A stretch of DNA of 54,852 bases, taken from a virus. The notes under the pieces are model-generated. The model had not been told where the DNA came from. It did no database searches and saw nothing but the letters and a program-made list of their open reading frames with translations. A program made the translations under genes and the position numbers. Of the stretch, positions 10,162-27,639 are shown piece after piece (the stretch's first letter is position 1; each line of letters starts with the position of its first letter). The stretch spans positions 1 through 54,852 of IMG/VR virus record IMGVR_UViG_3300017613_001415. One strand, written 5' to 3'.

Positions 10162-10205
10162 CTCTCTTTCTCCTTTCGTTGATCCCAGATCATGATTCAG
10201 AATTT

Positions 10206-10223
10206 TGATCCTGATCTCAACCT
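10206..10223 (-). promoter_or_regulatory. 18-bp operator, promoter-proximal copy
   Basis: On the plus strand this reads TGATCCTGATCTCAACCT, identical to 10298-10315. It lies about 15-30 bases downstream of the expected transcription start, a typical repressor position. It holds two GATC sequences 7 bp apart. Confidence 0.75.
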
Positions 10224-10243
10224 GAGACGTTTTGGGTTTCCTT

Positions 10244-10272
10244 ATTATAAGCATTAAAAACGGCAATGTCAA
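10244..10272 (-). promoter_or_regulatory. Consensus sigma-70 promoter
   Basis: On the minus strand TTGACA (10272-10267) and TATAAT (10249-10244) are separated by exactly 17 bases. Both hexamers match the consensus perfectly. Transcription should start near 10237 and run into 9757-10161 and the genes below. Identical operators lie on both sides. Confidence 0.9.
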
Positions 10273-10297
10273 GGAAAAAGTTGACGATTCTCAAAAA

Positions 10298-10315
10298 TGA
10301 TCCTGATCTCAACCT
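10298..10315 (-). promoter_or_regulatory. 18-bp operator, upstream copy
   Basis: This is the second exact copy of TGATCCTGATCTCAACCT, about 26 bp upstream of the -35 box and overlapping the stop of the NYN-domain gene. The copies are 92 bp apart, close to nine helical turns, which would allow looping around the promoter. Confidence 0.75.
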
Positions 10316-15311: not shown

Positions 15312-17642
15312 TTATTTCTCCGCCCATGAATCGAGATGGTCTTCCCAATCAATTTTAAGTAGCGGGACCAACTCCCGATACTCAACAACAAAATCTTCTA
15401 CAACAGTACGAACATGCGGAATCACCCAGGGTTGAGCCGGACACATGACTTCATCGTGTACGTTCATTGGCTGGACGATCCAAACATCAATACCTGATGG
15501 TTGCAAGTCCCAGATTTTTCGTTGAAGCATTTTAGTTAGTTCGGCTCCTGTTGCCTGTATCTCGTGGTTAGCTGCAGCTCGCATGTTCTGTGCTTGAATT
15601 TGAAATGCAGCAGCATACAGCGCGCTGCGTACGGCTCCATGCGCCGTCTGTTCTCTATCCCTCCTTGTTACTTTAAAATTTAAAGCAGTCCATTCTCGCG
15701 GCGGCTTTTGCGCTAAATCAAATAGCGCTCTGCATACTCGATTCTCTAACGTGAAATAACGATGGAAACCAAGCAGAGACTCAGCATAATCATGAGGCTC
15801 GTGCCATTCGACAACTGATCCGATTCCACCCGGCTGTCGCATCGAGCAGAATTTGTTGAATATTTTCGCACGCGCTTTCGCCCATACAATATATTTTCGA
15901 TTCCATCGGTCTTCTGCAGCCTGTGCTTGTTCCTCTGGTACCATGAGGCGCGTGGACAGGGTGTATGCCGTGCCCCCATACATGATCGCGAACCCGCCTT
16001 TCTTTCCTCTGTCATAGAGATCTTCAAATCCGGCCCTCCCTTTTGTCTCCAAAACTTCTTCATACGTTTTCTGAAAGACTTCAGCCCCAAAGAGAGCATG
16101 GAACTTTTTACCGCTTTGCAGTTCCTTTCGGAGCAATGGGTCCTTGTAGACGGCGTCTGCAATGGTAACCTCAAACCCTGAGAAGTCACCACCGCAGAGA
16201 TCTAATCCCCCATCAGCCAGCGTAAAAGCCGATCGGACGGTTTTGGTTCGATTGATTCCTTGAGGATTAAGGCGATCAGCGCCGGCCATACGGGATGACT
16301 TGGTTCCAAGAACCACAAAAGAAGCGTGAAATCGTCCAGCGAAGAGGAGTTTTTCATAGATTTCTACCTCCTTTTTAGCTCGCCGACCTTTTAAGACAAG
16401 CTGCGCCCTTTCAGCTGCTTGATGAAAACCTGATCCTTCGATCAATCCTTCGCCTTTGCAGAGCGGGCATTCTTCATTGAATCCTGCGCACTCGCAGACT
16501 TCGCTGTTTTTCCAGGTTGCGATGTCTTCGAGAATGGTGGCTTTAGTCGATCCGTCCATTGCGGCCTTTTCGACATCTGACATCGGCTCCTGCACGTATT
16601 CAAGAACTTTTGCAGGCGCTGTAAACAAAACAGACCGCTTTGCAGCGTCAACTTTGTGCTCAGCTTGAGATAGGAGGCCAAGTAGTTTAGTGCGGTCTGT
16701 AGCAAAACCACGCCAACGGACGGCACCAACCATGCAAGCCAAAGTGCTATCATCATCATCCATATCAGGATCATCGAAAAAATGGTAAAGGTTTCGAGTA
16801 TCGTGCACATCATCTTCAGCATATTTCCTCGCTAACGAGTTATACTCCCAGTGATTTGCATGTATTGCAATATGTTCGGGCCACTTACCATACCAGCGAC
16901 CGGGTCGAGGGTTCCTTAATCGTTGTGTTTTCGTGCGGAACGGAGCCAGCGCGAAGGGTGCCCATCCCTGTTCGACGGGTCTGGTTGGCGGAGCGACGTC
17001 ACCGAACAGGAGCCGGCGATCGTCGATTAAGCCAGCATCCCGAGCTAAGGCCTTTAAAGCTGTTGATGCTGCAAACTTAAGTACAACATTTTTAAAATCC
17101 GGGCGGATATCTCCTTCGATCTCAATATCTTCAACAGTCCAACGTTCTTCTTTAGCTCGCTTCTTCTTACTGAATAGTATGTCACGGAATTTGATTCGAC
17201 GATCAAGCTCAGTTGCTAATCTATAAGCTAAGACCGTTGGTACCTTTCGAATGACAATATTCTTACGAGCCATCGTTTCCTGATATGGACCTTTACGTGC
17301 ATGAAGCATGAGATCGAGAGCATGAGCAGGTTTAAGGCAGGGACCTAATCGCGCTTTTTCCTCGCGCACGGCATAGAGATCAATCTCATCTATTGGCAGC
17401 GCGTGCCTATCCATGAGACTGAGTGTGGTGTACGTCTGACAGAGATGGAATTGGTCGAAGGCCAAATTGAACCCGACCGTTCCCACCTCCATGAGCCATT
17501 CAATAAGCTCCAAAGTCTCATGAGCTTCTGAATGCCAGACATTATGCAGGGAGACCGCGTCGTCCCCCTGCGCATACTGAATCAAAACCGTTGGCCCATG
17601 CAGGCCGCAGGTTTCTGTATCATAGAATACAGGATTAAGCAA
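15312..17642 (-). CDS. Family A DNA polymerase with 3'-5' exonuclease domain
   Basis: The product has 776 residues. TTG at 17642 is chosen: it lies after AGAAGGA and gives the compact start LLNPVFYDTET. Exonuclease motifs: Asp8/Glu10 (YDTET), NLAFDQ at 59-64, and Tyr274-Asp278 (YAEDD). Polymerase motif A is GGDFSGFE with Asp486, motif B has Lys547, Phe551 and Tyr555 (KKGGFAIMYGG), and motif C is VHDE at 728-731. A CxC-x6-CxxC cluster at 383-395 is a small zinc-knuckle insertion not found in Pol I. The Phe in motif B is the wild-type Pol I state that disfavours dideoxynucleotides. It is the phage replicase. Confidence 0.9.
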   Translation of the reverse strand: MLNPVFYDTETCGLHGPTVLIQYAQGDDAVSLHNVWHSEAHETLELIEWLMEVGTVGFNLAFDQFHLCQTYTTLSLMDRHALPIDEIDLYAVREEKARLGPCLKPAHALDLMLHARKGPYQETMARKNIVIRKVPTVLAYRLATELDRRIKFRDILFSKKKRAKEERWTVEDIEIEGDIRPDFKNVVLKFAASTALKALARDAGLIDDRRLLFGDVAPPTRPVEQGWAPFALAPFRTKTQRLRNPRPGRWYGKWPEHIAIHANHWEYNSLARKYAEDDVHDTRNLYHFFDDPDMDDDDSTLACMVGAVRWRGFATDRTKLLGLLSQAEHKVDAAKRSVLFTAPAKVLEYVQEPMSDVEKAAMDGSTKATILEDIATWKNSEVCECAGFNEECPLCKGEGLIEGSGFHQAAERAQLVLKGRRAKKEVEIYEKLLFAGRFHASFVVLGTKSSRMAGADRLNPQGINRTKTVRSAFTLADGGLDLCGGDFSGFEVTIADAVYKDPLLRKELQSGKKFHALFGAEVFQKTYEEVLETKGRAGFEDLYDRGKKGGFAIMYGGTAYTLSTRLMVPEEQAQAAEDRWNRKYIVWAKARAKIFNKFCSMRQPGGIGSVVEWHEPHDYAESLLGFHRYFTLENRVCRALFDLAQKPPREWTALNFKVTRRDREQTAHGAVRSALYAAAFQIQAQNMRAAANHEIQATGAELTKMLQRKIWDLQPSGIDVWIVQPMNVHDEVMCPAQPWVIPHVRTVVEDFVVEYRELVPLLKIDWEDHLDSWAEK

Positions 17643-18501
17643 TTTTATCCTTCTGCGGCGGAATATAAACACGCCCACGGTTTTCGGTTTCCTCTCTCAG
17701 GTCAAGCAGAAACTCGCCGCTATCAATCTCACCGGCAGCCCAGGCCAAAGCCCGAGTAGTGAGATCGTTACCGATACAGTTTTGGATATGCTCCATCATA
17801 TTAAAAATGGTGTTGCGCGTCTGTGGCTTTTTGATCGATGGATCACCTTGACGCCGACCTTTGTTGGCCTTGAGCGTAAACTTCCTGAGTGAGGCCTCTT
17901 TCATCTGACGCGTGGCTTCGAACACATCCTCACCCCGACGTAGCATGGTATACAACTGCCGGATGTTATTCTGCGTAATGAAGCCTGCGCTTGCGTCCTG
18001 CTGAATCTCGTTGGGCATCTGAAGCAGCATACCTCGAATCTGTACCCATCCGCGACTCTTGCCGATTTTCTTTGCGACCTCAAACTCACCCAGGCCCAAG
18101 AGCAAAAGCTGACTGACGGCTTTTGCCTCTTGAAGGATGTTAAGATCCTTTCGTTTGATGTTCTCATTCAGATTGATAATGAGAGCTTGCTGCCGTGGAA
18201 TTACTTCCGGTTTCAGATTGCAAGGGATCGTCGTCCAGCCAAGAATCTTCACAGCCGCCAGACGCCTGAATCCTGCGATCAGCATATATGGCCGTCCGAA
18301 ACGCCCCTTGGTCACGTCGTCTGCGTGCGCGGCTACAACAGGCTGCAGCAGGCCACGCACTCGAATGTCCTCGGTTAAGTCATGGACGTCAATCGGTGAA
18401 ATCTTTCCCCGGCAATTGAATTCCGGATCATCGATCAGCATATCAATCTCTACATCCACGACGTTCATTTCTTTACTCTGAGTTGGTGTAATGTCTTCCA
18501 T
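17635..18501 (-). CDS. ParB-like protein (copy 1) between polymerase and helicase
   Basis: The 288-residue protein has a ParB/Sulfiredoxin N-terminal domain: LIAGFRRLAAV at 74-84 matches the G-x-RR box, with a QQALIINLNENIKRKDL segment like ParB's second conserved stretch. A helix-turn-helix follows (EVAKKIGKSRGWVQIRGML). The C-terminal half is basic then acidic. ParB domains bind CTP and DNA; phage versions can also act as nucleases or regulators. It starts in a TAATG overlap with the helicase and ends over the polymerase start. No ParA is seen in the window. Confidence 0.75.
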   Translation of the reverse strand: MEDITPTQSKEMNVVDVEIDMLIDDPEFNCRGKISPIDVHDLTEDIRVRGLLQPVVAAHADDVTKGRFGRPYMLIAGFRRLAAVKILGWTTIPCNLKPEVIPRQQALIINLNENIKRKDLNILQEAKAVSQLLLLGLGEFEVAKKIGKSRGWVQIRGMLLQMPNEIQQDASAGFITQNNIRQLYTMLRRGEDVFEATRQMKEASLRKFTLKANKGRRQGDPSIKKPQTRNTIFNMMEHIQNCIGNDLTTRALAWAAGEIDSGEFLLDLREETENRGRVYIPPQKDKIA

Positions 18502-21769: not shown

Positions 21770-22822
21770 CTACGCAGCCGCTTTTTTAGCTTTCTCGGCG
21801 GCTTCCTTCTGCAGCTTTTCGGCCGCTTCCCGTTTTTCTTGCTCGGTGATGCCGATGTCGGCAGCGGTCTTGGCCGCTTCCTTCTGGGCCTTTTCCGCGG
21901 CGGCGAGCTTGCGGGCGGCGCGATCCTTCTTGCGCTGTTCGGAGGCCGCCTTGCGCTCTTTCTGCTGCGCTTCGTACTTGGCCTTCTGCTGCTCGACGGA
22001 GATCGGGTCCATGTTCAAGACCCAGGAAATCGCGAGGCCCAGGCTCTCCTCGACGGTCTTGATCTTGAGATCCTTGGCCAAGGCGAGCAGAGGTTTGACG
22101 TCGTCCATGACCTCTTTGATTTCGGCCAGTTTGCGCATATGCGCGGTGGGTGTGAAGACGGCGGCCTGCGGGTCGCGCCCGGTGCGCTTGGCCGCGCGGA
22201 TTTCCTTGACGCGCTGATTGACCATCGGTACAAACTCTTCCGACGGCAGCGTCATGGCCCGGTCCAAATACTCGGGCTGCTCTTCGACGGGCAGCTTGGA
22301 CAGGGCGAAAGCATTGGCCAGGGTGACTTTGCCTTCGTCGATCAGGCCCCGGATGTCGTCGCTCTCGATTTTGTTGAGGTGAAGAATCTTGTCGATCCAG
22401 GAAGTGGATTTGCCGATGTTGGCCCCGACCTCGGCCTTGGACAGGGTGGGATTGGCGCTGAACAGGCGCACGAGCTGGCGGCCGTACTCCGCGGGCCGCG
22501 TCTCCACCTTGTGCAAGTTGGCCATGATCTGGGACTCCAACGCCTCCACGTCGGAATACGTGCCGATGTCCACATTGATCTCGGTGACCCCGGCGTCCAT
22601 TGCGGCGGTGAAACGATGCAGGCCGTCGATCAGTTCGTAGAACTTTTCGCCGGACTCGGCATCCTTCTTCTCCCTGACGGTGATGGCTCCCTTGAAGCCT
22701 TGCCGCTTGATCGACTCCACAAGGCCCAGGTAAGCCTCGCTTTCCCGGTTGACCGCGCGGAGCGCGACGGCGTTGGGTCGAATCATGCTTACGGGAACGG
22801 TTCTCAGACTTGATTTCGGCAT
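21770..22822 (-). CDS. ParB-like protein (copy 2), GC-rich
   Basis: The product has 350 residues. Tandem ATGs at 22825 and 22822 follow AGAAGGAGG; the second has better spacing. The ParB N-domain has LIDGLHRFTAA at 64-74 in place of G-E-RR. A helix-turn-helix near 126-150 (LSKAEVGANIGKSTSWIDKI) matches the ParB DNA-binding domain. The C-terminal 60 residues are a Lys/Ala/Glu-rich coiled helix instead of the usual dimer domain. The gene is clearly more GC-rich than its neighbours, with third positions dominated by G and C, which suggests recent acquisition. It is the first gene of the minus operon, next to several palindromes that could be its sites. Confidence 0.78.
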   Translation of the reverse strand: MPKSSLRTVPVSMIRPNAVALRAVNRESEAYLGLVESIKRQGFKGAITVREKKDAESGEKFYELIDGLHRFTAAMDAGVTEINVDIGTYSDVEALESQIMANLHKVETRPAEYGRQLVRLFSANPTLSKAEVGANIGKSTSWIDKILHLNKIESDDIRGLIDEGKVTLANAFALSKLPVEEQPEYLDRAMTLPSEEFVPMVNQRVKEIRAAKRTGRDPQAAVFTPTAHMRKLAEIKEVMDDVKPLLALAKDLKIKTVEESLGLAISWVLNMDPISVEQQKAKYEAQQKERKAASEQRKKDRAARKLAAAEKAQKEAAKTAADIGITEQEKREAAEKLQKEAAEKAKKAAA

Positions 22823-22861
22823 CATGCCTCCTTCTGCCTTTCGGCGGGTTTTGGGATCGGA

Positions 22862-22893: not shown

Positions 22894-22912
22894 TTGACAA
22901 CCCGGTTGTCAA
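22894..22912. promoter_or_regulatory. 19-bp perfect palindrome, candidate operator or partition site
   Basis: TTGACAACCCGGTTGTCAA has 9-bp arms around one central base. Each arm also holds a TTGACA -35-like hexamer, so the site would cover promoters in either direction. It lies about 70 bp upstream of the ParB-like gene. A helix-turn-helix dimer is the natural ligand; the ParB-like protein itself is a candidate. Confidence 0.7.
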
Positions 22913-22973: not shown

Positions 22974-22987
22974 TTGATCCCGGATCA
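22974..22987. promoter_or_regulatory. TTGATCC...GGATCA half-palindrome
   Basis: TTGATCCCGGATCA is the reverse-complement relative of 23256-23270. Both contain two GATC sites. They flank the main control region. Confidence 0.5.
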
Positions 22988-22992
22988 GGTTC

Positions 22993-23028
22993 CTGAGATC
23001 AGGATCATGATTCTGATCCTGATCTCAG
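22993..23028. promoter_or_regulatory. Double operator as a perfect inverted repeat
   Basis: CTGAGATCAGGATCA (22993-23007) and TGATCCTGATCTCAG (23014-23028) are exact reverse complements separated by 6 bp. Each arm is the operator core seen at 10206 and 10298. Four GATC sites lie within 36 bp. This is the strongest palindrome in the window. Confidence 0.85.
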
Positions 23029-23053
23029 CATTGCCTATGGTGGCAATATATAA

Positions 23054-23082
23054 GGAATAGCAGACCTGTAAAGGCTTGTCAA
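23054..23082 (-). promoter_or_regulatory. Possible promoter for the ParB-like operon
   Basis: On the minus strand TTGACA (23082-23077) is a perfect -35. Seventeen bases on, TATTCC (23059-23054) is a weak -10; an AT-rich stretch follows. It would be repressed by binding at 22993-23028 downstream. Confidence 0.45.
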
Positions 23083-23091
23083 TACTTTTTT

Positions 23092-23149
23092 CTATCTACC
23101 GTTTTCTTACTGACTAAAAATTAAAAATTATTAGTAGAAAATAAAAGAC
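23092..23149 (-). repeat. Inverted copy of the AT-rich block at 1239-1296
   Basis: Read on the minus strand, this contains GTCTTTTATTTTCTACTAAT, then an AT-rich stretch, then GGTAGATAG, matching the order at 1239-1296. It is the most AT-rich part of the divergent region and a candidate unwinding element. Confidence 0.6.
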
Positions 23150-23167
23150 AAGCCAATATGAAAAGGC

Positions 23168-23199
23168 TTGACAAATAATTCATACACCGTCTATCTAAT
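23168..23199 (+). promoter_or_regulatory. Possible promoter for the plus-strand operon
   Basis: TTGACA at 23168-23173 is a perfect -35 box. No good -10 lies at 17 bases; TCTAAT at 23194-23199 is 20 bases away. Transcription from here would enter the primase-helicase gene across the operator at 23235. Confidence 0.4.
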
Positions 23200-23234
23200 A
23201 AGGTATAGAGGCAATCAAACCCGATTGCCAGAAC

Positions 23235-23270
23235 TGATCCTGATCTCGGGATAAGTTGATCCGGGATCAA
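23235..23270 (+). promoter_or_regulatory. Operator pair in the plus-strand leader
   Basis: TGATCCTGATCTC (23235-23247) is the shared operator core. TTGATCCGGGATCAA (23256-23270) is a 15-bp palindrome just before the ribosome binding site. A protein bound here would block transcription or translation of the primase-helicase gene. Confidence 0.65.
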
Positions 23271-23286: not shown

Positions 23287-26070
23287 ATGAAAAGAGCTGA
23301 AGCGGTAAAGCTGTTCCTTGACAGCATGGCCGTCCCTGATCTCGCATCATTATACACGCGAGACATGGAATGCCAGGTATTAGTCAAGGACCATCCAGAT
23401 TGGCTGGAGGGCGACGGACGCGGTAAGCTGTTTCGTGATCCTGAATCAGGGATTGCATTCTACGGCTTTAGAATCCAGGACGAAGAAGGAGCTGACAAAG
23501 AAGTCAAGTTCCCATTGGAGCATTACGTCCGTAATGTAGGCCTGACCGGATGGGACTTTAAGAAGAAAGAGTCAATCTGGGTTGGAATTGATTTTGACAT
23601 TGCAGAAGAACATACCTCCCTACGCAACGCGCCCACGCAAGACCAACTTGATCTCGTCATCAATCAAGCCAAAGAGATTCCCTGGTTAGAGATCCGTAGA
23701 TCAACTCACGGTAACGGGTATCATATGTATGTCTATCTGCCCGAGGGGACGGCTACGGAGACGCGCGCCGAACACATTGCGCTTACGCGCTACGTCATGC
23801 AGGCGATAGAGAGCAGGCTGGGCGTTCCTTTTCAACAGGCTGTCGACTCTTGGGGAAAAGTTCTCTGGGTCTGGTCGCTGACGCAGCACGCCGAACGTGG
23901 GTTTCAATTAGTCAAAAAAGCGGATACAAACTTCGATAGCCTCCCGTATAACTGGCGCTCGCACGTAGAGATCCAGAGATCAAGAAAAGGTGATCGAGCT
24001 ATCATCAAGACAAAGGACAGCAAGCAAGTCGATGAAATCTCTAAATGCATGCTCCAGGTCGACTTAGATGATGATCATAAGAGATTGATTGCTTGGCTTC
24101 AAAAGCAACAGGGTATCTACACATTTGACCAAGATCGTAATCTCGTGAATACACATACGAGCCTCTTGAAGGATGCGCACCGCGCGCTTGGACTTCTGGG
24201 AGCGTTTGATACTGCATCAAGAGGAACGAACCTGGCTGAACAAAATTGTTTCATGTTCCCGTTACGCGATGGTGCGTGGGTCGTCAGGCGTCATGGTGGC
24301 TCAAACATCAGCGGGGAAAATGCGCTATGGGAGCGCGAGCCGGGCGGGTATCTCAAATGCTATTATAATACGCCGCTCACGCTTAAGACGTACATACGCG
24401 TATATGGCGGGTACGAACACGTCAAGAAAAAAGGAACATACGGAATTACCTTAGACTCGTATACGGCGTCAGGCTTGAGCGCGCTCGGGGTAACTACTGG
24501 AAAATTACCTTTTGGAATTGATCCTAATTCAGCACGCGCGAAGCGACACGAGGCCCTACAGGCTATGTTCTGGGGCAGAGAGCTGGTGCTTCAGATGCAT
24601 CCTACCGACGGGCGCCTGGTGCTTACGCTGCCGCACAGGGAGGGAGACCCAGAGGAAAGTATGCGAGAGGCAGGATGGCATGTAGAAGGATCACGTCCAA
24701 AGACATGGGCAAAGATTGAAGATCTCTATGTCAGAGAAAGCCCGACGCTGGTCTTCGAACCTATGAGACGATTCGAAGATCGCTTTCGGTACATTGTTCG
24801 TGGCGGCGAGTTCTGGGCTTGGTTCTCAATGAATGATGACAGCGAATGGGTCAAAGGTGAAGAAAAGAATGTGAAGCATATCTTGGAATTGGAGCGAGTA
24901 CCCAAAGCCCAGGTCAAAGATGTCATTCGCGCGGGATCAGCCTTCCCGTGGTATATAGTACATAGACCATTTGAAGAAGAATATCTCTCTGGTAGACGAT
25001 GGAATAAGAATGCTCCCTCTTTTATAGTTGACCCATCGGGTAAGGCCTACAAGGACTTAAACTACCCGACTTGGAAGATGATCTTAGATCATGTGGGCCA
25101 TGACCTGGATTTTTATATCGATTCAGAGAAAGGTTGGTTTAAAAAAGCAGGAATCAAGAAAGGCGGCGACTACCTTTTTCTATGGTATGCAAGCATTTTT
25201 CAGAACCCTTATCGTCCGTTGCCGATGATCTTTTTGCATGGGCCGCAGGGCTGTGGAAAGTCTACTTTCTACTTGATGATGTGGCATCTGATCGATTCTG
25301 GGATCAAGGACGCCAGCACCGCTTTAAGCTCCCAAGGCAACTTCAACGGTCAATTGGAGGGTGCCGTCGTGTGTGTGATGGAAGAAGAAGGTGTGAAGAA
25401 TCGCGCTATCGCATACGACAAATTGAAGAAATGGATCTCTGATCCAAAGGTAGAAATCCATATCAAAGGGCTGACGCCGTATACAGCGGATAATACATGG
25501 CATTGGATTCAATGTGCTAATAAAAAACTTTATTCACCAATTTTCTCTGGTGATACCCGTGTGGTTGCTATTGAGATGCAGCCCTTTGATAAATTTATTA
25601 CTGGAGAAAAACTAAACCCACTGCTTAAGCAGGAGGCTCCTGACTTTCTACAAGCGCTTATCAGTAGAAAGATTCCACCTTTCGAAGATCGCCTCGGGCT
25701 GCCTGTTATCGAGACCGATAGCAAGACAGAGATCATGCACTCGAACGAGGATGCGCCTGTTGCCTTCGTACGCGAGATGATGGAGCCATGCGCAGGAAAC
25801 CTGATACCATATACAGTTTTCAAGAAACGGTTCTTTTCATCCGGACACGATATGAATACGTGGACAAAGCAGATGTTGTCCAGCGTCCTAACGAATGCTG
25901 ATCCAAAGATCGTCAAAGGTAAGCTAACGGGAAATGACGTATTCATTGCAAACCTACGATGGAAAAACCAATGGGCCGATGGATACGATCAAAATCCAAC
26001 ACCTGAACCTTGCAACTTTGTGTACGTTCGAGAAGGATATACTCTCGAAGAAAGGAGATTCGATGACTAA
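23287..26070 (+). CDS. Primase-helicase (AEP-type primase plus SF3 helicase)
   Basis: The product has 927 residues, taking ATG at 23287 after GGCGGTG; GTG at 23281 is the alternative. The N-terminal third looks like an archaeo-eukaryotic primase: GIDFDI at 100-105 gives the metal-binding Asp102 and Asp104, and RRSTHGNGYHMYV gives Ser139, His141 and His146. The C-terminal half has a D5/SF3-like ATPase with Walker A HGPQGCGKST at 651-660, a Walker B-like CVMEEEG stretch and an Asn-containing sensor region (IQCANKK). It would prime and unwind at the origin. It is the first gene of the plus operon, under the GATC operators. Confidence 0.83.
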   Translation: MKRAEAVKLFLDSMAVPDLASLYTRDMECQVLVKDHPDWLEGDGRGKLFRDPESGIAFYGFRIQDEEGADKEVKFPLEHYVRNVGLTGWDFKKKESIWVGIDFDIAEEHTSLRNAPTQDQLDLVINQAKEIPWLEIRRSTHGNGYHMYVYLPEGTATETRAEHIALTRYVMQAIESRLGVPFQQAVDSWGKVLWVWSLTQHAERGFQLVKKADTNFDSLPYNWRSHVEIQRSRKGDRAIIKTKDSKQVDEISKCMLQVDLDDDHKRLIAWLQKQQGIYTFDQDRNLVNTHTSLLKDAHRALGLLGAFDTASRGTNLAEQNCFMFPLRDGAWVVRRHGGSNISGENALWEREPGGYLKCYYNTPLTLKTYIRVYGGYEHVKKKGTYGITLDSYTASGLSALGVTTGKLPFGIDPNSARAKRHEALQAMFWGRELVLQMHPTDGRLVLTLPHREGDPEESMREAGWHVEGSRPKTWAKIEDLYVRESPTLVFEPMRRFEDRFRYIVRGGEFWAWFSMNDDSEWVKGEEKNVKHILELERVPKAQVKDVIRAGSAFPWYIVHRPFEEEYLSGRRWNKNAPSFIVDPSGKAYKDLNYPTWKMILDHVGHDLDFYIDSEKGWFKKAGIKKGGDYLFLWYASIFQNPYRPLPMIFLHGPQGCGKSTFYLMMWHLIDSGIKDASTALSSQGNFNGQLEGAVVCVMEEEGVKNRAIAYDKLKKWISDPKVEIHIKGLTPYTADNTWHWIQCANKKLYSPIFSGDTRVVAIEMQPFDKFITGEKLNPLLKQEAPDFLQALISRKIPPFEDRLGLPVIETDSKTEIMHSNEDAPVAFVREMMEPCAGNLIPYTVFKKRFFSSGHDMNTWTKQMLSSVLTNADPKIVKGKLTGNDVFIANLRWKNQWADGYDQNPTPEPCNFVYVREGYTLEERRFDD

Positions 26071-26467: not shown

Positions 26468-26777
26468 AGACCTCTTTTTAGATTCAGGATATACTCGTGG
26501 GCCATTTCATTCTCAGCTATGGTATAAAATTCTATCGGAGACAGATGAGTATGTTAAGATTATTGCCTTCGATATTCCCTATGCCAAACCACGAAAAATT
26601 TCTTGGCGCGAATTTGACACGCTGCACATTAGAGGCGGACTGTGGAAGCGGACCGGTTTATATCAATTTGACCGCGCAGATGATCCTGCCATCAAAGACA
26701 TAATTTTTTGTTCAAGATACCCGCAGGCCGCAGGCCGTGAACTCTATAAATTACGGAGGAAAGATGTCTCTACTTGA
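26460..26777 (+). CDS. Hypothetical protein
   Basis: The product has 105 residues, with ATG at 26460 after GGGAGGG. The middle is strand-rich with aromatic residues (EYVKIIAFDIPYAKPRKISW). The C-terminus is basic (GRELYKLRRKDVST). It overlaps both neighbours by 8-14 bp. No family is recognised. Confidence 0.55.
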   Translation: MFKDLFLDSGYTRGPFHSQLWYKILSETDEYVKIIAFDIPYAKPRKISWREFDTLHIRGGLWKRTGLYQFDRADDPAIKDIIFCSRYPQAAGRELYKLRRKDVST

Positions 26778-27639
26778 CCAGTTCGATAACTTAGAGCGTT
26801 GGGCTTCGCGACCCGGAGACCCGAATCAGATTCTTCGAGCGCCATTTGGTTGGCCGGGTGGAAAGTCTAAATCGGTAATGGATATCGTACCTCATCTTCC
26901 TAACACACGAACATATATTGAGCCGTTTGGAGGCGCAGGTAGCGTACTACTTGCACGCGGGCCGTCACAGTTTGAAGTATTTAACGATAGATACTCCGGT
27001 GTCACAGCTTTTTATAAAGTTCTTCAGACCCCTGAACTTTATATGAAGCTAATCGAAAGATTGGATCTCACGATCCATTCGAAAGAGTATTGGCATTGGT
27101 GTAAAGACTCATGGAAGAACCCAGATGACCCGGTCGAGCGCGCAGCCCGCTGGTATATCATGGTACTCTATTCCTTCGGAGCAATGGGTCGGAACTGGGC
27201 ACGATTACGTAAGGTGTCCGTGCCGCTTGGAAATAAGATGCATAAACATCTGGAAATGTTTCCAATTATCCATGAGCGGATAAAGCGTGTTCAGATCGAC
27301 AATGAGGATGCTTTTAAATTGCTCAGGCTTCATGACTCTAAGGAAACAGTCTTTTATCTTGATCCTCCTTACGTTGGTGCATACGAAGGCGCTTACACAT
27401 ATATGATGTCGACTGACCGACATATGGAGCTTCTGGATATTGTTTTCGATCTGGAAGGTTTTGTTGCTGTATCAGGCTATGATAATCGCTGGTATGGAGA
27501 ACGTGATTGGGATAATAAGATCGAGTTTATGAAGACTGTCTGCCTGACGCCTGGAGGCGAAACCGAGAATGCCAGTAGGAATTTAACGCAGAAGCGTATA
27601 AAGGCAAAAGAATGCCTTTGGATTAAGGAGGCCGGATGA
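26764..27639 (+). CDS. D12-class N6-adenine DNA methyltransferase (Dam-like)
   Basis: The product has 291 residues, with ATG at 26764 after CGGAGGAAAG. FGWPGGK at 28-34 and YIEPFGGAGS at 51-60 form the AdoMet site; LDPPY at 199-203 is the catalytic DPPY motif. Order and size match the Dam/D12 class, many of which methylate GATC. The window appears rich in GATC, and the operators contain several, so the enzyme may protect phage DNA and influence operator binding. Target specificity is not proven. Confidence 0.87.
   Translation: MSLLDQFDNLERWASRPGDPNQILRAPFGWPGGKSKSVMDIVPHLPNTRTYIEPFGGAGSVLLARGPSQFEVFNDRYSGVTAFYKVLQTPELYMKLIERLDLTIHSKEYWHWCKDSWKNPDDPVERAARWYIMVLYSFGAMGRNWARLRKVSVPLGNKMHKHLEMFPIIHERIKRVQIDNEDAFKLLRLHDSKETVFYLDPPYVGAYEGAYTYMMSTDRHMELLDIVFDLEGFVAVSGYDNRWYGERDWDNKIEFMKTVCLTPGGETENASRNLTQKRIKAKECLWIKEAG

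Follow-up and report, generated by a model that had tools for sequence, protein, structure and literature searches.

Sequence comparison indicates that the two divergent early operons of this phage carry one shared set of operator sites and that, among uncultured relatives, the arrangement of the sites is conserved while their letters drift; both arms of a phage have the same type of site, which differs from lineage to lineage. One trans-acting factor that reads both arms is well supported, because the two arms of a phage share words far above the cross-genome rate. The best candidate for this regulator appears to be ParB1, the ParB-fold product of the first left-arm gene, on the strength of a modest, post hoc association between its recognition helix and the operator type. 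The window here means the whole 54,852-base record that we analyzed.

The core TGATCCTGATCTC had been predicted as a perfect 15-bp inverted pair at 22993–23028, at 23235 and twice within 10206–10315, and all of these are exact matches. A search of the whole record found five exact copies (10206+, 10298+, 22995−, 23014+ and 23235+), and none of them lies outside three early promoters in the 54.9 kb (Table 1). The arms of the inverted pair (22993–23007 and 23014–23028) are 100% complementary over 15 bp, with a 6-nt spacer. When up to two mismatches were allowed, 12 matches were found against 1.9 expected, with a maximum of 6 across 100 shuffles, and the reversed TGATCCTGATCTC control pattern had no match in the window. 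The core is not equally common at random coding positions, since the exact copies are all intergenic (10298–10310 touches the stop codon of the gene ending at 10309), and this is clearer still in the relatives. Each core consists of tandem TGATCY hexamers at a 6-base step (TGATCC TGATCT), with degenerate copies between cores, such as TGATTC at 23008, and the neighboring palindromes are the same hexamer inverted around three bases. Both TTGATCC-GGATCAA palindromes in the original prediction are present, but only the copy at 23256 is perfect; the one at 22974 ends in GGATCAG, and a third element of this type at 10179 had been missed.

Shared control of the two arms, which had been proposed from the window, is supported by the position of the sites, by their promoter context and, above all, by an arrangement conserved in many relatives. 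The left and right predicted promoters of the divergent region face away from each other, and at all three promoters the start point is followed by a tandem core, a palindrome and finally the ribosome-binding site. At the 10.2-kb promoter, one core lies ~25 bases upstream of the −35 box and the other ~25 bases downstream of the −10 box. The parB1 start is ~150 nt beyond the left sites, which lie about 150–200 nt from it, farther than in most relatives. These promoters are matches to the sigma70 consensus, which says nothing of promoter use, and the right-arm promoter escaped the consensus scan because its −10 box does not end in T. We infer that the placement of cores and palindromes is more easily reconciled with repression or a roadblock than with activation.

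Table 1. Sites, promoters and genes of the two early arms (window positions)
Feature	Position	Strand	Remark
Inverted pair of tandem cores, GAGATCAGGATCA-TGATTC-TGATCCTGATCTC	22993–23028		Just downstream of predicted left-arm promoter
Palindrome TTGATCC-C-GGATCAG, left-arm copy	22974–22988		
Tandem core TGATCCTGATCTC, right arm	23235–23247	+	
Palindrome TTGATCC-G-GGATCAA	23256–23270		Perfect (7-1-7); adjoins primase ribosome-binding site
Tandem core downstream of internal left-arm promoter	10206–10218	+	
Tandem core upstream of internal left-arm promoter	10298–10310	+	
Third palindrome-type element TTGATCC-C-AGATCAT (TTGATCCCAGATCAT)	10179–10193		Beside the 10206 core
Predicted left-arm sigma70-type promoter TTTACA-16-TATATT	23045–23072	−	Promoter scan
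Alternative predicted left-arm promoter TTGACA-17-TATTCC	23082–23054	−	Read from sequence
Predicted right-arm promoter TTGACA-18-TATCTA	23168–23197	+	Read from sequence
Perfect match to sigma70 promoter, TTGACA-17-TATAAT (12 of 12)	10244–10272	−	Promoter scan; between two cores
ParB-like protein 1 (ParB1), first left-arm gene	21770–22825	−	ParB_N fold plus helix-turn-helix; recognition helix about residues 141–152
ParB-like protein 2 (ParB2), left arm	17635–18501	−	ParB_N plus HTH_ParB, KorB-like
Primase/helicase-like protein (DUF5906), first right-arm gene	23287–26070	+	
Dam-like D12 adenine methyltransferase, right arm	26737–27639	+	

The divergent region also contains a perfect 9-1-9 palindrome, TTGACAACC-C-GGTTGTCAA, at 22894–22912, which shares bases with the −35 box of a rightward promoter prediction (TTGACA-17-GATACT). 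Because neither half recurs in the window, it may be the operator of another regulator.

Relatives were found through the terminase TerL and then through a primase alignment (profile search); a megablast of the window against INPHARED returned no match, nothing close to it was present in that collection, and primase patterns built from a single sequence matched nothing in the viral contigs. The TerL search yielded 29 viral contigs, 8 of which hold both primase and ParB1, and the homologous divergent region is present in 7 of these 8, the other (G023) being rearranged. From the primase profile search, in which 80 of 286 loci were examined, came 80 more loci, ~60 with ParB1 divergent from primase. 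The gene order parB2, parB1, divergent region, primase is kept in about 60 uncultured relatives, with the placement of parB2 further down the ParB1 arm judged where the contig was long enough.

Many relatives have an analogous site beside both parB1 and primase, usually GATTTGATT. In most of those found by TerL, the sites before the two genes read TGATTTGATT or AATCAAATCA rather than the window's TGATCCTGATC, and G022 has GATTACGAGATTATGCGTAATC on both sides of its divergent region. In G003 the word is confined to the divergent region and to the surroundings of one promoter ~11 kb into the left arm (TTGACT-17-TATACT), a second flanked promoter that parallels the window's 10.2-kb site. In G006, the word is also found directly before parB2 and around a third promoter; such extra flanked promoters lie at 2.8 kb in G003 and at 49 and 62 kb in G006. 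As the operator word precedes parB2 both in G006 (L185, 9110–9220) and in L285 (1485–1581), parB2 probably belongs to the regulon in some phages.

Counts across the relatives set the site apart from chance. A AATCAAAT-type word lies within 130 nt of both genes in 20 of 53 non-redundant regions, compared with 0.2% of shuffles. In 24 genomes (411 kb) there are 79 copies of GATTTGATT, 74 of them within 11.4 kb of divergent region; 2 of the remaining 5 are upstream of parB2 and 3 are in coding DNA, whereas the reversed control word has 2 copies in the same 411 kb, both in coding DNA. Of same-strand TGATT pairs, 54 have a spacing of exactly 5 bp, and each of the other spacings accounts for 6 pairs at most. 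Regions without GATTTGATT use other words (AGAAGCGAAGTTA in L214, GGTCTGGTC in L257, GATATTGATATT in L228 and CATCACATC in L227), and in these changed-word regions a phage's own left and right flanks reach a score of at least 11 in 12 of 23 cases versus 3% of cross-genome pairs (P = 9e-9), a test made on short outer flanks that exclude the duplicated promoters' own sequence. The site is thus of the multi-promoter operator type: present at several promoters and rare elsewhere, in a conserved arrangement whose letters co-vary in both arms.

Several searches and loci fall outside this pattern or at its edges. Structured patterns for TGATCC variants retrieved no ParB1-bearing contig and no second phage with a TGATCC variant, and a scan of the collection with TGAGATCAGGATCA gave scattered single matches, its sole two-match locus (L027) looking like signal-peptide coding sequence. 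Two viral contigs (L343 and L347) have tandem TGATCCTGATC-type units whose step is 45 bases or a different multiple of 15, and the stretch examined in them holds no ParB1 homologue. In L283 and L221, dense arrays (17 copies of AACTTAAGT and 22 copies of CCCCGGTCCC, respectively) replace the usual sites of the divergent region. The ParB1–primase module also occurs in L288, L292, L294 and L298, contigs that were placed in bins of Planctomycetota (one contig being 444 kb long), Thioalkalivibrio and Patescibacteria, although these hosts are uncertain because the assignments are MAG bins.

The original prediction of no standard repressor gene in the window holds within a Pfam scan of 60 window proteins, which found no helix-turn-helix regulator besides the ParB-like proteins. 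The same scan found no ParA-type ATPase, next to parB as in a ParABS partition locus or elsewhere, although genes without a Pfam match remain. The left arm also encodes an A-family DNA polymerase, a VRR nuclease and a thymidylate-synthase relative. ParB1 matches Pfam ParB_N (1.4e-8) and has a ParB_N domain followed by a helix-turn-helix, as in ParB/KorB-type proteins, and its predicted AlphaFold structure (pLDDT 81) matches those of ParB, Noc and KorB. Across 8 relatives, ParB1 has DGLHR and ANLHK in place of the canonical GERR and ENxQR of the CTP pocket, with the Asn kept; because parts of that pocket are missing, clamp behavior should not be assumed for ParB1.

Evidence on which protein reads the site comes from the recognition helices. 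When all relatives were included, phylogeny overwhelmed a mutual-information scan, and the association test was therefore limited to the 28 genomes nearest the window by ParB1. There, 304 ParB1 columns were ranked by how well they track whether AATCAAATC is present, and helix residues 142, 146 and 145 came 4th, 5th and 17th, in a test that was chosen post hoc, ignores phylogeny and depends on 5–6 genomes with a changed operator. Residue 146 lines up with N178 of Caulobacter ParB, which is reported to contact parS (PMC7383237), and the alignment to a solved ParB structure (1vz0) has no gap across the helix. The window is unique among the 28 both in lacking a helix arginine at 147 and in using TGATCC. 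In the ParB2 helix, for which there were fewer sequences, a single residue (157) reaches P = 0.045 and the others do not follow operator type. Of the ParB-like proteins suggested earlier as the regulator, the product of 21770–22825 is on this evidence the best-supported candidate and the first protein to test.

We propose that ParB1 would bind the tandem TGATCY half-sites and the neighboring TGATC-N3-GATCA palindromes, which follow closely on the start points of three promoters: its own on the left, that of the primase arm on the right and the internal one of the left arm. As it accumulates, ParB1 would reduce the transcription of the two arms jointly by stopping RNA polymerase on the promoter or immediately beyond it, and pairing of the sites that flank each promoter might help repression; the result would be an autoregulatory early switch. 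Each lineage would use one operator sequence for both arms, changing together with the ParB1 recognition helix. We lean slightly toward this model as a whole, and within it we infer that ParB1 is the protein that binds, that it represses instead of activating, and that it acts as a roadblock or by looping. Against the model stand the form of the core, a tandem repeat spaced 5 or 6 bp rather than the palindrome usual for ParB-family proteins, the unusually large distance between the window's left sites and parB1, and the failure of the pattern searches to turn up another phage with the TGATCC variant.

A bolder version strikes us as doubtful: a phage-wide ParB-family regulator with an impaired CTP pocket would serve as a dedicated early repressor that reads tandem 5–6-bp repeats, and the operator–helix pair would have been repeatedly re-coded, by which the window's half-sites would have become GATC-bearing and Dam-tunable. 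If this is true, re-coding between lineages perhaps avoids cross-repression in co-infection and, with GATC in nearly every half-site of the window, the phage's Dam-like enzyme could tune the regulator.

The strongest competitor, which we nevertheless judge unlikely, is that the binder is ParB2, a KorB-like CTPase clamp that would load at the sites and silence both arms at a distance, in the manner of KorB on plasmid RK2. ParB2 matches KorB by sequence and keeps the CTP motifs (GFRR and ENIKRKDLN), the operator is present at the promoter of its own gene in G006 and L285, and TGATCC-S-GGATCA is similar to the short palindromes that ParB-family proteins recognize. However, its recognition helix (SRGWVQIR) is nearly constant while the operator changes, and its gene lies ~4 kb from the divergent region.

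The AT-rich center of the divergent region, adjoining a primase gene and a ParB gene, would also suit a replication origin or a ParB-bound centromere, with the repeats acting as iterons or loading sites. A change in the sign of GC skew near 22 kb agrees with such a role but is also explained by divergent transcription alone, and the 2–3 DnaA boxes (TTATNCACA, mostly TTATCCACA) per divergent region in L227, L232, L249 and L250 are confined to one subclade, with none in the window's region. The consensus boxes suggest that the divergent region may double as a replication origin in that subclade. As the main function of the region it is improbable, given that the same sites flank promoters without an adjoining replication gene (at 10.2 kb in the window, 2.8 kb in G003, and 49 and 62 kb in G006) and that no ParA-type ATPase was found by Pfam among 60 window proteins.

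A host transcription factor that binds the sites and sets early timing, as the original prediction also allowed, has a smaller chance again: such a factor too would vary between lineages, but the operator type varies with a pattern of residues in a phage protein whose gene lies at the site, and in phage genomes the site is nearly confined to the divergent region.

Least probable is a Dam-methylation switch or P1-type packaging site in which the phage's Dam-like methyltransferase would act on the GATC pairs: the window's divergent region has 12 GATC in 462 bp and a D12 enzyme is encoded in the right arm, yet 42 of 63 related regions (redundant included) have the same methyltransferase in the locus with a mean of 0.8 GATC per region, and many of those relatives' sites read TGATT. 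The pac site of P1 consists of methylated TGATCA/G hexamers; a packaging site is not supported here because the sites flank promoters at several places, one of them inside the left arm. Because methyltransferase-bearing relatives average 0.8 GATC against the window's 12, GATC is not the functional core in this lineage, and Dam control as a lineage feature was rejected, although GATC could still matter in the window. Most relatives conserve the Dam-like methyltransferase itself in their right arm. Five relatives are depleted in GATC, which is slightly over-represented in the window phage (425 versus 384 expected).

The proposed ParB1 switch has partial counterparts in known systems. KorB, a ParB-family CTPase clamp and global repressor on plasmid RK2 (PMC11790492), offers a ParB-fold regulator with short dyad sites and several operators (O_B) that coordinate separate operons, and both ParB1 and ParB2 resemble KorB structures in sequence or in fold; it differs in that the phage core is tandem at 5–6 bp with letters that drift between lineages, no KorA partner is seen here and the CTP pocket of ParB1 is degenerate. 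ParB/parS and Noc/NBS share the fold of ParB1, and their specificity changes map to the recognition helix and the next residues (PMC7383237), but the phage sites lie at promoters, no ParA was found and specificity varies between related phages. VirB of Shigella is likewise a ParB-family transcription regulator acting from sites (virS) near promoters (PMC10770331), although as an anti-silencer with a CTP clamp, and ArdK of plasmid R388 is a repressor that reads direct repeats in several promoters (PMC9723621) but belongs to the KorA family rather than the ParB family. Among phages, Casjensviridae (BcepNazgul, L301, and Aeromonas phage 13AC503A, L302) have divergent early genes with a related primase, and BcepNazgul encodes DNA polymerase and helicase in the arm opposite primase. 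They differ in having a small protein before primase (annotated as helix-turn-helix in 13AC503A) and no annotated ParB1, which suggests that the type of regulator has been exchanged.

A divergent early switch with ParB-family regulators would be of a known kind, here with a conserved arrangement and a code that drifts. Within one protein family, the lineage offers a naturally occurring series of operators, each paired with a recognition helix, a data set that can show how ParB-type DNA-binding specificity gets re-coded. It also gives a testable role to phage ParB-like proteins that are usually labeled only as partition proteins and provides a simple rule for locating the region of early control in a lineage of uncultured phages.
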